This document shows positions 12,884 to 43,951 of a DNA stretch of 64,000 nucleotides, piece by piece. Numbering within the stretch: position 1 is the stretch's first letter; each line of letters starts with the position of its first letter. Origin of the DNA: Mucilaginibacter sp. Bleaf8 (GTDB taxonomy: Bacteria; Bacteroidota; Bacteroidia; Sphingobacteriales; Sphingobacteriaceae). The position numbers were made by a program, and so were the translations under genes. The notes below the pieces were generated by a model. The model was not told the origin of the DNA, searched no databases, and saw nothing but the letters and a program-made list of their open reading frames with translations. The DNA lies in contig NZ_JAHBBK010000001.1 in the NCBI RefSeq assembly GCF_018390515.1, positions 496,001-560,000 on the forward strand, read 5' to 3'.

Positions 12884-12971
12884 GGAGAGTTGGCAGAGTG
12901 GTCGATTGCGGCAGTCTTGAAAACTGTTGACTGTAACAGGTCCTGGGGTTCGAATCCCTAACTCTCCGCCA
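12884..12971 (+). tRNA. tRNA-Ser (anticodon TGA)
   Basis: The acceptor stem GGAGAGT / ACTCTCC is fully paired, the discriminator is G 12968 and CCA is encoded at 12969-12971. The anticodon arm GCAGT-CTTGAAA-ACTGT puts TGA at 12918-12920 (reads UCA). A long variable arm follows and the T-arm is GGGGTTCGAATCCC, as expected for a type II serine tRNA. A terminator follows at 12991. Confidence 0.96.
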
Positions 12972-36463: not shown

Positions 36464-36538
36464 TGGAGGCGTGAGGACGGATTCGAACCGCCGTACAAGG
36501 TTTTGCAGACCCCTACCTAACCACTCGGCCACTCCGCC
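36464..36538 (-). tRNA. tRNA-Cys (anticodon GCA) with an extra base in the acceptor stem
   Basis: Read on the minus strand: acceptor GGCGGAG, D-arm GCC...GGT, and anticodon arm GGGGT-CTGCAAA-ACCTT with GCA. The T-arm is GGCGG-TTCGAAT-CCGTC, then CTCACGCC, discriminator T, and encoded CCA (36464-36466). The 3' acceptor strand has eight bases, CTC-A-CGCC, against seven in GGCGGAG. All seven pairs form only if the A at 36472 bulges out. Everything else fits a cysteine tRNA. Likely functional but structurally odd, or a single-base sequence error. Confidence 0.88.
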
Positions 36539-38288: not shown

Positions 38289-38381
38289 GGCTAAAATTTT
38301 TTAAATAAATGATTAAATGAATTTACTTATGCCAGAGAGACTGCCGGGCAAGCCAGCTTTACAAGTTGGTTAACTTGTTAT

Positions 38382-38497
38382 CTTATCTTCCTCCTGTGTT
38401 TATGTACAAGAGCAGGAATTAGCACCTTTCACCAGCTTAAAGCTGGCATAGGTTGCTAAGACTTCGCAGGGCCTTTCCCTCAGTCTTTCTGGATAAG
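38382..38497 (-). ncRNA. SAM-I (S-box) riboswitch
   Basis: On the minus strand the aptamer runs from CTTATCC (38497) to GATAAG (38382), which pair as P1. Inside are the P2 arm AGACT/AGTCT with the kink-turn GA, GAGGGAAAGGCCCTGCGAAG including the pseudoknot GGCC, and the conserved TTAGCAACC. The P3 hairpin CCAGCTT/AAGCTGG, then GAAAGGTGCTAATTCC and the P4 arm CCTG/CAGG follow. All S-box landmarks appear in order. It should switch off the downstream cysteine desulfurase and thioredoxin genes when S-adenosylmethionine is abundant. No intrinsic terminator is visible after it, so control may act on translation. Confidence 0.95.
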
Positions 38498-38525
38498 TAT
38501 AAAAAGAACGTTCACTAAACAGCAT

Positions 38526-38579: not shown

Positions 38580-39074
38580 TTATTTAGCCGCCGTTAAAAG
38601 CTCCAGCTTTTTTGTATCACGATAACTTAAATACAAAGGAATCATGCATAGCGCACCAAACGAACAATCAACCAACCGCCAGTAAAAAGGGATATTACGG
38701 ATGGGTCCGACGATGAAGGCTAAAGGAAAAATAAGTACACTGGCTATCATACCGAATTGTATCACCCAAATGTTCCGAACAGGATCTTTATACGGCCCAA
38801 CATAAACTATAGCTATTACAATATGCGCAAATGCTAACCAATCGGTTCCATAACTAAGATACGGGTATAGCTCATTGGTGTTATGTATGGCTATATATAT
38901 GGTATGAACCCAATTTGAAATAAAGCTATCACCTGCAGGGAGGTGTTTGAGCCAAAAGGCCAGTTCAGTTTCAATTGGAAAGGCCGTTACGCCACTAATA
39001 ACTAAGCCAAAAATGATGATCGCGATATTGATTCTTATGCGCCTGTACAGGCGTTGTGTTTGATTAGTTTCCAT
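38580..39074 (-). CDS. Small integral membrane protein downstream of xrtN
   Basis: A 164-residue protein with four predicted membrane helices (about 16-34, 78-96, 104-124, 132-150), a basic N-terminus and basic C-terminal end. It resembles no family that I can name. Its ATG lies 11 bases inside the xrtN 3' end, so it is translationally coupled to the exosortase. Membership of the XrtN operon suggests a helper role in sorting or surface assembly, which is inference only. Confidence 0.7.
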   Translation of the reverse strand: METNQTQRLYRRIRINIAIIIFGLVISGVTAFPIETELAFWLKHLPAGDSFISNWVHTIYIAIHNTNELYPYLSYGTDWLAFAHIVIAIVYVGPYKDPVRNIWVIQFGMIASVLIFPLAFIVGPIRNIPFYWRLVDCSFGALCMIPLYLSYRDTKKLELLTAAK

Positions 39075-40428
39075 AGAATTGTAAATTGAAAATATTTTTA
39101 ACCAGCAGCTGTTTTACTGCTGTGCGTAATGTAGTTTGGTTGGCTGTATTAACGTTGATCAGGTAAAACAACTTGTCGTTTTTTAAAGCCTGCCAGCGCC
39201 AATGCAATTGGTCTACGCTTCTTGAAGTACCATCATCAAACCACCAGGCTGTGTAAATGCGGTCATGCCCTTTTTCAAGCACGCCGGTGTATATATCTAC
39301 GCCGTCAACTTTTTCCTTCTTAACACTTTTGAACCGGTAGCCGCTACCTACCCAACAAACTGTCGGGTCGTGTTCGGGAGCATAAAAAGCTGTTGGTTTT
39401 AGATACACAAGTGCGCTTGCATTATGTAGCTTGAGGATGCCACCCGGCAAGACACTCTTTTGGTAGCCTGCAACTTGTATGCTTGTTTGTGCCGGACGAT
39501 AAACCGTATCTACCGTTGTTCGGTGATAAGCTGCACATGTAAATGCAATAAGTAAGCAGAAATGCAATAGCGGATATAACAAACCGACAGACTTCTGCTG
39601 GCTAACAGCAGCAGCAATGCCATCGCTTCCAAAACGGCGAATCGCCAACTGGATGATATATAATATTGGCATTAAAACATATAGTGTTAAACAAAGCAGT
39701 CCTATGGCATCATGCATAACCGTATCTGGCATCGCTTTGAAAAGCACCAGCATAAGTATCCTTAAAAAGTTGGATACGATGTTTAGCGCTATGGTCATGA
39801 TCGTAAGCAGTAAAAGATGGATGAACCCCAAGGCCTTGCCCAGCTTATGCTGATAAATAGCGATCACCAGAAAACAGATGAGCAACGATGTAACCAGCAT
39901 ATTTAAACCTGCGCAAGCCGGGTCGACTGCAAATTCATACCCGTCAACAGCTATTTGATTACCAACTGCCAGTGCCGTTTTGCCGCATGCTTTCAATACA
40001 TTTGCCGCCTGCTCGCTTAACCATAAGCGTACAGGCAATTCAAATAAACGGGTAATATGCTTACACACCGGCGAAACAAGCAGAATCAGAAATAAAATTA
40101 CCGGATTAACTTTACCCCAACTGCTTTCAACAAGTAACAGTACTGCAAGCAGCATGGCCGTAAACAACGCTGTTTTTACTGGCAACAATATAGCCAGTAT
40201 CACAGCTACTATAGCCGGTATCAAATAACGTACGGACCGCTCTCCTCTGTACCTTAGCACTATTACCGGTATAATAGCGAGTGCCAGGTACACATTCCAA
40301 TCCCATGCAAAATAACCAGGAACTAACCATACCGCAGAGCCTGCGTAAAACAGCCCGATTAATGCTGCAAGCCACGCCTGTGATAACGATTTTGCATGGG
40401 TATTACCCATTAATAAATCAGGCAGCAT
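39064..40428 (-). CDS. xrtN: Exosortase N (XrtN)
   Basis: A 454-residue membrane protease/transpeptidase. Residues 1-290 hold about eight membrane helices with the exosortase catalytic triad: Cys 172 in VDPACAGLNML, Arg 223 in NIVSNFLRILM, and His 239 in MHDAIGLL. Residues about 310-454 form a soluble EpsI-like domain (HDPTVCWVGSGYRF). Exosortases cut C-terminal PEP-CTERM-type signals and attach or release the protein. XrtN is the Bacteroidota type with one dedicated VIT-domain partner, encoded directly upstream here with an 11-base overlap. Catalytic residues all present. Confidence 0.92.
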   Translation of the reverse strand: MLPDLLMGNTHAKSLSQAWLAALIGLFYAGSAVWLVPGYFAWDWNVYLALAIIPVIVLRYRGERSVRYLIPAIVAVILAILLPVKTALFTAMLLAVLLLVESSWGKVNPVILFLILLVSPVCKHITRLFELPVRLWLSEQAANVLKACGKTALAVGNQIAVDGYEFAVDPACAGLNMLVTSLLICFLVIAIYQHKLGKALGFIHLLLLTIMTIALNIVSNFLRILMLVLFKAMPDTVMHDAIGLLCLTLYVLMPILYIIQLAIRRFGSDGIAAAVSQQKSVGLLYPLLHFCLLIAFTCAAYHRTTVDTVYRPAQTSIQVAGYQKSVLPGGILKLHNASALVYLKPTAFYAPEHDPTVCWVGSGYRFKSVKKEKVDGVDIYTGVLEKGHDRIYTAWWFDDGTSRSVDQLHWRWQALKNDKLFYLINVNTANQTTLRTAVKQLLVKNIFNLQFYGN

Positions 40429-42934
40429 AATTACGTATTGCGGGTTTAAACATGCTATAAGCTATTACCAAGGCGGTTAATATAATCAGCATCCATTCTT
40501 TAGGTTCGGGCACAGCTCCGGATGATTTCATGGAGGCATTTTTCAGGCTGTTCTTATTCTCATCAATACCAAATCTTTCATAATCCTTTTGGCTCTCCAG
40601 CACAATCATGCTCGATACTGGACTAACGATATAACCTCTTTCTGCCTCGGCTATCAGCTCCGGGCGAATAAGATTCTTGTTGAAGTAATCAGCCCCGGCT
40701 TTTTTCATAATGTCATTGTAAGTAAACAATCGCATCAAGTGATCTGGCGCTGTATTTCCGGTCTTCTTATTTTTTGTTTGCTGTATCATTAAACCAGCAT
40801 GCTCAATTACCACGGTAGAGTCATTCTCCTGCACACCAGCAAACTGTTGTGATTTTAGTCGGGTGGTTAAATCAGTGATCGTACCCTGCTCGTAGTTAAG
40901 TACCCGCAACTCTTTTAGCGCTTTCAGATATGGCGTGGTTTCTGTACCCAAATTAAAAATTCGGATTTGCTTAGGCTCTTTTAAATAATGAGTCAGACTT
41001 TTAGAGAATTCGCTGTCATTCAAATCTTGTAAACCTGGTGATGCACCATTGTTTTTGGTGATGAGCAAAGCATCTTCGGGATGTGCAATTTCAAATACGG
41101 GAAACAAACTAAAGTTCTGTGCAGTGGCTATCTCATAAACATCCTGTGCATTGTTATTATCAATACCAACGAGCGAACCTGAATAGGCATAAACTCTTTT
41201 ACCTTTCAGTAAGTTAAGTAAAGTAAGATATTCCTGTTTAGACCATGAAGCATTCAAATCCAGGTAAACCGATTGCGGGTTGAATTGCGTTGCATGGGGC
41301 TGATAAGCTTTTAGCTGATAAGTGGTATCTGCAAAAGTAAAACCCGTAGTAGCCAGCTGTGGTGCAAAGCAGGATAGCTCCCAATAAGGCTTAAAATCGC
41401 GGTTAAGCTGGTACACACCAAGGTTCACCTGCTTTGCCCCCTCCGGCAGTTTAATGCCACCAGGCTTATTACCATCATAACTGATCTGCAGGGTTTCGAC
41501 TGCATTCTTTGCAGTTGGCCCGTCGAAATAACTGTTTTCGTAAAACAAACTACCGTTTTGGTAGCGCAGCGGACTGGTAATGCCTATACGGAATAAGCGA
41601 TTTTCTTGTGGTGTGCATGGAAATACCCTAACCGTAACAGTGTTTCCTTCCTGCCAGTGTACCACGGATGGATCGTGCACTTCTACGCCCACTACCGTTT
41701 TGTAGGCAGAATCAGCCTTAGCCTGTGTAGTTAACCGCGACTTTTCCTCATGCCCGTTAATCCATAATGATAAGGAACTAACCACTGATCCTTCCGGCAT
41801 ATGGAAGGTATAAATTGCTTCTTCCTGATTCCACGCTCCCTCAGCAATGTTATGTACCGTTAGGCTTTTCTCGGTATATGCCATGCGGTATTGTGGGTAT
41901 AATTTCACATTGCTTACCACACTTGAAGTTTGCAGGTGATCGCCCGTCCAAAGGCGATCCTGTGCATGGTGGCGTGCGTCATACATGGATTTCAAAATAT
42001 TTATGCGCGCTTTTCGATCCAGATTAGGTTCGCTGAAAAGCAAGCTGGCGATAACCACCAACGGGTCGTGCACCTTACGCTCATCGAAAGATTGTGATGG
42101 CAAACCGGCAAAGAAAAAGTCGCCCTGCGGATTGGCTTCTTGGTAAACCAGGCCGGCTTTCAGGATACGTTCATTAATAGCTGTTTTTTCAACCCCCTGG
42201 CTTACCGCCACCCAGGCAGGTAGCTTACCATCATTGAGGGTGGCTTGGTTCATTAATAAATCAATCTTTTGGTTGCTTTTATTCCACATAATCAGGAACA
42301 CCATTAAGGCAATAAGCGGTGCCGTAAAACCGGCCCCGAATAGGCAAAGTACAGCCCGATCTTCCCTACCAACCCGAATCAGTAATATGATACTTAGAAC
42401 TGCTAAAAAAGCTGGAATAAATGTGTGCAGCGATATACCTAAACCAATAATAGCAACTACACTTAGAGCATACAGCGGAACAAGGTAGATGGCATAATAA
42501 ACAAACAGCAAGCAGGCAGCACCCAAAAAGAAGTACACCATATTCTGTAAATACTTCGGCATAGCTGCACTGAACGCCGCCAGCAAAAAAGTAACTGACG
42601 AGATAACAATCCAAACGCAAAGCCAGTCGGCCGAGTCGTTGAAAACATTCATTTGCCGGTTCAAAGCAAATGCACTTATAAACCACAACATCAATAAAAT
42701 TGCAGTATGCGATAGTTTAGCCTTTGAAAGCCGCCATCCGGAATACCATACCGTATCTATAAATAAGGTAACTAAATAGGTTATGGAAAACAGGTAGTTC
42801 AAAAAGAATATACCTGTGCTTACTCTTGTGGCTGTGTTAAGCGATACACAAAAAACAATGGCAGACAGACTGGTAAGTACCAAACCCCACCTGGTGAGTT
42901 TGTCTTGAAATAAGGTTTTGACGAATGTGTTCAT
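40418..42934 (-). CDS. XrtN-system VIT domain protein (exosortase substrate)
   Basis: The 838-residue protein has about seven to eight N-terminal membrane helices (1-235), then an extracytoplasmic part with a VIT domain near 360-465 (YTFHMPEGSVVSSLSLWING... VRVFPCTPQENRLFRIG). A von Willebrand-like region (LDLNASWSKQEYLTLLN) follows. The C-terminal sorting signal is VPEPKEW (808-814), then a hydrophobic helix and the basic end RNYAA. I know this pairing as the single dedicated target of XrtN. Its role after sorting is unknown. A 22-base regulatory site and a perfect -7 box lie directly before the start codon. Confidence 0.92.
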   Translation of the reverse strand: MNTFVKTLFQDKLTRWGLVLTSLSAIVFCVSLNTATRVSTGIFFLNYLFSITYLVTLFIDTVWYSGWRLSKAKLSHTAILLMLWFISAFALNRQMNVFNDSADWLCVWIVISSVTFLLAAFSAAMPKYLQNMVYFFLGAACLLFVYYAIYLVPLYALSVVAIIGLGISLHTFIPAFLAVLSIILLIRVGREDRAVLCLFGAGFTAPLIALMVFLIMWNKSNQKIDLLMNQATLNDGKLPAWVAVSQGVEKTAINERILKAGLVYQEANPQGDFFFAGLPSQSFDERKVHDPLVVIASLLFSEPNLDRKARINILKSMYDARHHAQDRLWTGDHLQTSSVVSNVKLYPQYRMAYTEKSLTVHNIAEGAWNQEEAIYTFHMPEGSVVSSLSLWINGHEEKSRLTTQAKADSAYKTVVGVEVHDPSVVHWQEGNTVTVRVFPCTPQENRLFRIGITSPLRYQNGSLFYENSYFDGPTAKNAVETLQISYDGNKPGGIKLPEGAKQVNLGVYQLNRDFKPYWELSCFAPQLATTGFTFADTTYQLKAYQPHATQFNPQSVYLDLNASWSKQEYLTLLNLLKGKRVYAYSGSLVGIDNNNAQDVYEIATAQNFSLFPVFEIAHPEDALLITKNNGASPGLQDLNDSEFSKSLTHYLKEPKQIRIFNLGTETTPYLKALKELRVLNYEQGTITDLTTRLKSQQFAGVQENDSTVVIEHAGLMIQQTKNKKTGNTAPDHLMRLFTYNDIMKKAGADYFNKNLIRPELIAEAERGYIVSPVSSMIVLESQKDYERFGIDENKNSLKNASMKSSGAVPEPKEWMLIILTALVIAYSMFKPAIRNYAA

Positions 42935-42940
42935 ATTTTA

Positions 42941-42964
42941 AAAGTACTTTGTATTTCAAAGTTA
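42941..42964 (-). promoter_or_regulatory. Operator and -7 box before the XrtN substrate gene
   Basis: AAAGT-ACTTTG-TATTT-CAAAGT (42941-42962) begins 7 bases from the ATG. ACTTTG/CAAAGT form a dyad. On the minus strand TAACTTTG (42964-42957) matches TAnnTTTG, so the dyad covers the -7 box and start point. A near-identical copy lies at 43887-43908. Confidence 0.7.
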
Positions 42965-42977
42965 TTGGATAAAAAAA

Positions 42978-43280
42978 TTATGGCTTTTGTTGTTTTATTA
43001 AATTTTCGAGTGCTTCGAGGTGTTTTTTAAACGCTGAGATGCCTTTATCAGATGCCAGATAACGGGTATTGGGCTTTCTGCCCAAAAAAGATTTGTTCAC
43101 CGTAATATACTCCTCCTTTTCCAAAGCCTTTAAGTGCGATGCCAGGTTGCCATCGGTCACCTCAAGCAAATCTTTCAGAGAATTGAAGTCATAGCTTTCG
43201 TTCGCCACCAAAACGCTCATAATTTGCAGGCGTATGCGGTTTTCAAAAGCCTTATCAAAATTATTAAGCGATATTTTCAC
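42978..43280 (-). CDS. Winged-helix transcriptional regulator
   Basis: A 100-residue regulator starting VKISLNNFDKAFENRIRLQI (initiator Met from GTG), with a winged helix: helix-turn-helix FNSLKDLLEVTDGNLASHLK and wing EEYITVNKSFLGRKPNTRYL. The family, common in Bacteroidota, has no ligand domain. The GTG at 43280 is chosen because the family begins there and because it gives a 17-base overlap with the upstream membrane gene; the ATG at 43331 would add a Cys-rich stretch foreign to the family. It is the likely binder of the twin 22-base sites flanking it (42941 and 43887). Confidence 0.85.
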   Translation of the reverse strand: MKISLNNFDKAFENRIRLQIMSVLVANESYDFNSLKDLLEVTDGNLASHLKALEKEEYITVNKSFLGRKPNTRYLASDKGISAFKKHLEALENLIKQQKP

Positions 43281-43884
43281 GGTCGTATTTAAAATGCATA
43301 ATGGTACCGTACACAATGTGCAGTACACCAAAGCCCATAGCCCAAAACATTAATCCAAAGCCCGGCATTGCGGCGGCAATTAAGCCAAGTATAATATCAC
43401 ATATACCCAGCCATTTCACATCACCAAAAGTATGCTGGCTGGCGGCCACCAGCGCCAGGCCATAAAATATAAGACAGGTAGCAGCGATAACACCGTAATG
43501 CCCCTGCCAAATTAAAATCATGGCAAAAGCACCTCCGGTAAACAATGGCAAACTGCCGCTAACCAGCAGCGCCCTACTGGTAGGGTTCCAGATAGTTTGC
43601 CTTTTACGACGCGCCTTACGTACGGTTAACAACAGGCCCGTACCTACCGATAAAACAAGTACACCACAAGCTACAGCTAAAAGCTGCCAGGTAAGCCATT
43701 CATTATAGTCGCGTACATAGGGATCAAAATCGCCATACAGCAACTTATAACCAATAGCCGCCCCTATTAATGCATAAATGCCAGCCATAACGCCCGATAA
43801 ACCACTGAGGGAAATGAACTTAGTTGACCGCTCCATCATATTTTTGATAGAGCTTATTTCGGCATAAACGTCTTTGTGTTCCAT
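43264..43884 (-). CDS. Six-helix membrane protein co-encoded with the winged-helix regulator
   Basis: A 206-residue protein with a short hydrophilic N-terminus (MEHKDVYAEISSIKNMMERS) and six membrane helices. A basic loop KARRKRQTIWNPTSRALL lies in the middle. I recognise no named domain, though such proteins often accompany this regulator type in Bacteroidota. The 17-base overlap with the regulator gene implies coupled translation and a shared role, for example the membrane protein sensing a signal or sequestering the regulator (inference). The regulatory site lies 3 bases before its ATG. Confidence 0.75.
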   Translation of the reverse strand: MEHKDVYAEISSIKNMMERSTKFISLSGLSGVMAGIYALIGAAIGYKLLYGDFDPYVRDYNEWLTWQLLAVACGVLVLSVGTGLLLTVRKARRKRQTIWNPTSRALLVSGSLPLFTGGAFAMILIWQGHYGVIAATCLIFYGLALVAASQHTFGDVKWLGICDIILGLIAAAMPGFGLMFWAMGFGVLHIVYGTIMHFKYDRENIA

Positions 43885-43886
43885 TT

Positions 43887-43908
43887 AAAGTACTTTGCAA
43901 TTCAAAGT
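43887..43908 (-). promoter_or_regulatory. Second copy of the 22-base operator, before the regulator operon
   Basis: AAAGT-ACTTTG-CAATT-CAAAGT differs from the copy at 42941-42962 at only two positions, both in the dyad spacer. It ends 3 bases from the ATG at 43884. On the minus strand TTACTTTG (7 of 8 to TAnnTTTG) overlaps it. Confidence 0.7.
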
Positions 43909-43951
43909 AAAGTAAAAGAACTCGTGCTACCAAATTAATTTCGAATTTTAT

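Follow-up and report, generated by a model that had tools for sequence, protein, structure and literature searches.

The window, a 64,000-nucleotide stretch of the Mucilaginibacter sp. Bleaf8 genome, contains a locus on the minus strand in which a regulator operon is followed by an exosortase operon. The regulator operon begins with TM206 (43264..43884), which encodes a membrane protein with six helices, from a family not yet described, and stands upstream of the regulator gene in nearly every locus, and continues with HTH (42978..43280), a winged-helix regulator of the HTH_34 type with a GTG start; the 17-base overlap of the two frames (TM206 43884-43264, HTH 43280-42978) is as an earlier note on this DNA had described it. 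The exosortase operon comprises the gene for a VIT-domain protein of family TIGR04477, the XrtN substrate (40418..42934), the exosortase XrtN itself (TIGR04476; 39064..40428) and, as its last gene, a 164-aa membrane protein, here called TM164 (38580..39074), which overlaps XrtN by 11 bases and is a recurring member of the putative regulon described below. The pairing of XrtN with a VIT-domain target, mentioned in the same note, was confirmed by both profiles, the substrate scoring 985.1 bits against a cut-off of 250 and the enzyme 373.6 bits against a cut-off of 200. Near the C terminus of the substrate, after the VIT domain, there is a conserved SSGAVPEPxEW motif. Elsewhere in the window, a SAM riboswitch (RF00162, 77.1 bits; 38380-38499, minus strand) lies upstream of the gene for a cysteine desulfurase-like aminotransferase (38288-37152), and Rfam places two tRNA genes at 36468-36537 (minus strand) and 12884-12968 (plus strand).

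HTH matches PF13601 at 96.1 bits (cut-off 27) over all 80 positions of the model and is the sole HTH_34 protein over cut-off in the genome. Its predicted structure is a winged helix, with a helix-turn-helix and a two-stranded wing (pLDDT 91.2), and its nearest solved relative is 1ub9/PH1061 (E 5.8e-13). The AlphaFold2 model of TM206 has six long membrane helices and one N-terminal helix (pLDDT 88.7). This protein belongs to a coherent family, in which 39 diverse members share invariant residues that include I13, M17, S20 and G28. We considered whether TM206 could be SdpI or have another known fold and rejected this: the window protein matches no Pfam family over cut-off, the SdpI model is found for none of the 39 homologues among the Pfam families listed at E<=0.1, and the PDB holds neither a sequence relative nor a fold match at E<=0.001.

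Paired sites in the window

Each operon is preceded by a 22-base site on the minus strand. The upstream site, UP (ACTTTGAATTGCAAAGTACTTT, 43887..43908), is kept across the family and the phylum and ends 2 bases from the TM206 start codon (ATG 43884); the downstream site, DN (ACTTTGAAATACAAAGTACTTT, 42941..42962), ends 6 bases from that of the VIT gene (ATG 42934). Of their five spacer bases, two differ, and the exact core, ACTTTG-N5-CAAAGT, has these two copies only within the window. The near-identical pair (43908-43887 and 42962-42941) was thus present as claimed, along with its neighbouring start codons, but the distances of 3 and 7 bases given previously are coordinate differences, the true gaps being 2 and 6. 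The half-sites ACTTTG and CAAAGT are inverted and lie 11 bp apart, about one helical turn, a spacing that would match expectation for a winged-helix dimer.

Promoter elements accompany the upstream site. At UP, a -33 element of the TM206-HTH operon, TTTG (43931..43934, minus strand), is matched by TTG at the same offset (-27 to -22) in 107 of 110 orthologous upstream sites, and a -7-like element, TTACTTTG (43903..43910, minus strand), overlaps the left half of the operator, its first T being present in 99% of the 110. The sigma-A -7 consensus of flavobacteria is TAnnTTTG (PMC9723704). The earlier note was right that the operator overlaps a -7 element at the regulator operon but misplaced the perfect box: a perfect TAnnTTTG (TAACTTTG, 42964-42957) stands at the XrtN site, and the regulator-operon site has TTACTTTG instead, yet is the sole site in the window with a TTTG -33 element. 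At DN, a T7 tract (42971..42977, minus strand) directly follows the stop codon of HTH and ends 8 bp before the operator.

Rarity of the site and its co-occurrence with the regulator

The site is rare. The 5.03-Mb Mucilaginibacter genome contains four perfect copies of the 22-mer ACTTTG-N5-CAAAGTACTTT and five of the 17-base core, and all four perfect copies precede membrane-protein genes or operons that start with one; the possibility, named in the note as a refutation, of a motif scattered genome-wide before unrelated genes was not borne out. The copies outside the window lie at C1:114 kb, where two tandem sites precede the gene for a 112-aa membrane protein, and at C13:36 kb, before a gene for a DoxX-like protein. 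A control pattern, the motif read backwards, found no match in 201 genomes of the order or in 395 genomes sampled across the phylum.

Site and regulator co-occur at both scales. Among the 201 genomes of the order, 184 encode an HTH relative (E<=1e-8) and 136 contain a perfect site; all 136 encode HTH and none of the 17 HTH-less genomes has a site (p 9e-10, a nominal value, the lineages being related). Among the 395 Bacteroidota genomes, 190 encode HTH (E<=1e-12) and 80, covering 43 genera, contain a perfect site; once again every one of the 80 encodes HTH, and the site is absent from all 205 HTH-less genomes (p 6e-31, likewise nominal for related lineages). The exact site is missing from 110 of the 190 HTH genomes phylum-wide, some of which have one-base variants such as CAAAGCACTTT. 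The anatomy of the locus, with UP site, TM206, HTH and DN site in order, was seen in nearly all loci fetched from the family and from other families.

Two observations belong beside these counts. Four Dyadobacter regulator loci (L376, L377, L378 and L381) speak against the link, having no motif within the 1.5 kb examined although the XrtN operons of the same genomes have a near-perfect or perfect site. A P-to-T change in the wing of HTH tracks the site variants GCAC and GTAC; this co-variation is confounded by phylogeny and was set aside as evidence.

Exosortase loci and the wider candidate regulon

In the order sample, a site precedes the XrtN operon at all 13 XrtN loci, that of the window included; at four of them the operon opens with CreD. 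A scan with the substrate alignment extended this to 80 XrtN loci, from Mucilaginibacter, Pedobacter, Pontibacter, Rufibacter, Dyadobacter, Chitinophaga, Niastella, Fulvivirga, Chryseolinea and other genera. Of the 78 that could be evaluated, 63 have a site (<=2 mismatches) within -650 to +70 of the VIT start, 41 of them perfect, and none of 200 permuted motifs matched in this test; the motif that the note had asked after at other XrtN loci is thus their usual companion. The same regulator lies close by less often: a TM206-HTH operon is within the 6-kb upstream flank at only 32 of the 80 loci. The site is thus retained even at a distance from the regulator gene. Where an adjacent regulator was lacking (32 loci tested), a site was found in 25 of 28 genomes that encode HTH and in none of four that do not (Fisher p 0.001). 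Ten XrtN loci without a nearby site comprise four in HTH-less genomes, three with HTH 3-5 kb upstream and three that have HTH and are siteless.

Individual loci show further arrangements. In two Pedobacter genomes where no regulator adjoins the VIT gene, that gene has tandem sites before it, and in a genome of another family (G369) a site stands 15 bases before a gene for an 832-aa protein that is followed by an exosortase-like gene. In several tandem XrtN loci, L277, L301, L305, L316, L328 and L334 among them, a hairpin and a T-run lie between the operators, in the leader of the substrate gene. A weak XrtN fragment with an internal stop (G085:C5:41235-41459, in L116) is possibly the remnant of a lost gene.

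A regulator specific to XrtN is ruled out by the distribution of HTH, which is found in 184 of the 201 genomes of the order, against about 13 for XrtN. The commonest neighbour after a DN site is CreD (PF06123) or a relative; other genes in this position are a Coq4-like gene with CreD, DUF4153 and XrtN. Among 46 perfect sites away from the regulator, 13 precede the 112-aa protein, nine a DoxX-like protein, eight DUF2809 and three CreD, while the remaining scattered sites lie before small membrane proteins and a TM164 relative. In five loci (L128, L139, L145, L146 and L185) TM164 itself lies behind HTH without XrtN, often together with DUF2809 and a protein with an MpaB-like oxygenase domain.

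In three genomes (L212, L215 and L419), two of Pedobacter type and one of another family, the operon behind HTH contains an independent exosortase/VIT pair, XrtK with MSEP-CTERM. This pair lies at L212:4163-7580 (TIGR04287 135 bits, TIGR04286 873.5 bits) and at L419:2369-5652. For one of the three genomes, the substrate was assigned by the size and place of an adjoining 928-aa gene. XrtK loci are not targets in general: of the three over cut-off in the 395 genomes, only the HTH-adjacent one has a site at <=1 mismatch, and the other two have none at <=2 mismatches.

Two classes of site

The UP and DN sites share a sequence and are nonetheless different devices. The -33 and -7 elements of the UP class have no conserved counterpart at DN, where TTG occupies the corresponding place in one of 95 loci and the first T of the -7 box is present in 47%. 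Instead, 95 of 95 DN loci of the family have a run of at least six Ts whose position is constant, with 8 bp between its end and the site, and phylum-wide an A/T tract is present in 41 of 41, of which 30 are T6+ runs and 11 are AnTm; overall, 136 of 136 DN loci have the tract at an unchanging distance. Where sites occur in tandem, the first usually has the -33 element and the second the tract, and of 30 such second sites about half have a stable hairpin (z<=-2) before them. DN sites directly after HTH have no stable hairpin (mean z 0.11).

It had been proposed that the regulator acts by occluding the -7 box. This fits the UP class, where the site overlaps a conserved -33/-7 promoter and occlusion is the straightforward reading; the DN class has neither a conserved -33 nor the first T of a -7 box, so simple promoter occlusion is unsupported there. 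Intrinsic termination of the TM206-HTH operon is not by itself a sufficient account of the T tract, since there is no hairpin at that place and the tract is AnTm in 11 of 41 loci. These AnTm variants also count against a pure U-tract model. The DN tract is possibly an element that releases RNA from a stalled polymerase, or else a DNA-structure element of an unusual promoter.

A tentative proposal, to which we give less than an even chance, is that UP sites block initiation and that the internal sites, those after HTH or second in a tandem pair, are no promoters but elongation barriers gated by the regulator, with read-through from the regulator promoter on a membrane signal. An A/T tract at a fixed distance of 8-10 bp from the site, which in tandem loci often follows a hairpin, would release polymerase stalled by bound HTH_34 protein, and XrtN/VIT and CreD would be expressed by read-through only when a signal sensed by TM206 frees the DNA.

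A model for the regulatory switch

Our main reading, to which we assign a probability of roughly 0.78, is that both sites are operators of a phylum-wide Bacteroidota HTH_34 regulon that is autorepressed and has TM206 as its likely sensor. The HTH_34 protein would bind the site as a dimer. At UP, the dimer would cover the -7 region and the transcription start of the TM206-HTH operon, resulting in autorepression; at DN, it would control downstream envelope genes, namely the XrtN operon here and CreD, Coq4-like, DUF4153 and XrtK/MSEP-CTERM genes elsewhere; and further single or tandem sites would add a small set of inner-membrane protein genes. The comparative evidence strongly supports control by one regulator, acting through this site, of both its own operon and that of the XrtN sorting system, and to this extent the proposal that it represses itself and the sorting operon is supported; it needs amending in that the mechanism at DN may differ and the regulator is not dedicated to XrtN.

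Gating by TM206 is plausible because its gene and that of HTH are almost always together; its reading frame usually overlaps or abuts the HTH frame. SdpI is a membrane protein that captures the repressor SdpR, and by analogy TM206 would hold or release the HTH_34 repressor on a signal that we infer to arise at the membrane.

Three other explanations bear on the binding and its sign. HTH might bind the site and activate transcription, and the lack of a conserved -33 element in the DN class would suit this, since activator-dependent promoters can be of that kind. Yet at UP the operator lies over the -7 element and the predicted start and reaches further downstream, which is the position of a repressor, at a promoter with a good -33 element of its own, and repression is the usual role of HTH_34/ArsR-like proteins that have autoregulatory sites; activation is accordingly unlikely. 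Still less probable is that the motif serves an alternative sigma factor as its promoter, or that it is bound by some other regulator co-inherited with HTH_34. UP sites do coincide with promoter elements, and, HTH and TM206 being inherited together, the association of site and regulator is compatible with another co-inherited factor. This reading would hardly account for a second inverted half and ACTTT downstream of the predicted start, or for DN sites that keep the full 22-mer without promoter elements, and the motif is confined to HTH-bearing genomes, where it flanks the HTH gene itself.

The motif is short and palindromic, as a chance match or a mobile repeat (a dispersed palindromic element) without regulatory role could be. 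But copies per genome are few, their N5 spacer varies, their orientation is fixed, start codons are near and the target families recur, with no backwards-pattern match in the 201 and 395 genomes; genome-wide rarity and the reversed and permuted controls rule this origin out, and we put its likelihood at next to nothing. Repression by a bound HTH_34 dimer is what we infer in preference to each of these.

Significance and comparison with known systems

No function has so far been assigned to XrtN, its VIT substrate, CreD, TM164 or the small Bacteroidota membrane proteins, which the proposed regulon joins. It names a regulator and an operator, offers a candidate sensor and gives XrtN a testable regulatory context. 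That a second pair, XrtK/MSEP-CTERM, recurs in this position points to an inducible envelope response in which the dedicated exosortase pairs of the phylum take part. The open-access literature, which leaves subscription papers outside, yielded no mention of XrtN as an exosortase or of its regulation, no exosortase together with CreD in Bacteroidetes, and no instance of the motif in a relevant context. The view that this control circuit had not been described before agrees with that search: the operator, the membrane partner, the regulon and the two-class site architecture appear to be undescribed. The general type, an autoregulated winged-helix repressor with a membrane partner, is a known one.

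The closest analogue is SdpR of Bacillus subtilis, an autorepressor of the operon that it shares with the membrane protein SdpI (PMC6818787). Both systems are two-gene operons that combine a small autorepressor, of ArsR type in SdpR, with an integral membrane protein. However, the gene order is reversed in TM206-HTH, which belongs to another phylum; its regulon takes in several loci, including exosortase, CreD, DoxX-like and DUF2809 genes; and no adjacent toxin operon was seen. PH1061 (1ub9) has the HTH_34 (PF13601) domain in common with the regulator but was deposited as a hypothetical protein, with no operator, membrane partner or targets described there. The enzyme and substrate of the window are members of the XrtN/VIT families (TIGR04476/TIGR04477), and in three genomes XrtK/MSEP-CTERM (TIGR04287/TIGR04286) stands where XrtN/VIT does here, behind the regulator; these family definitions, however, contain neither regulator nor operator. 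For the internal sites, a precedent exists in protein roadblocks such as LacI, CcpA, CodY, PurR and ArsR, where a DNA-bound repressor downstream of the promoter can halt elongation (PMC10310618). A repressor bound at an internal operator may stop elongation here in a similar way; what sets these loci apart is an A/T tract that accompanies the operator at a constant distance, often joined by a hairpin where sites are in tandem.
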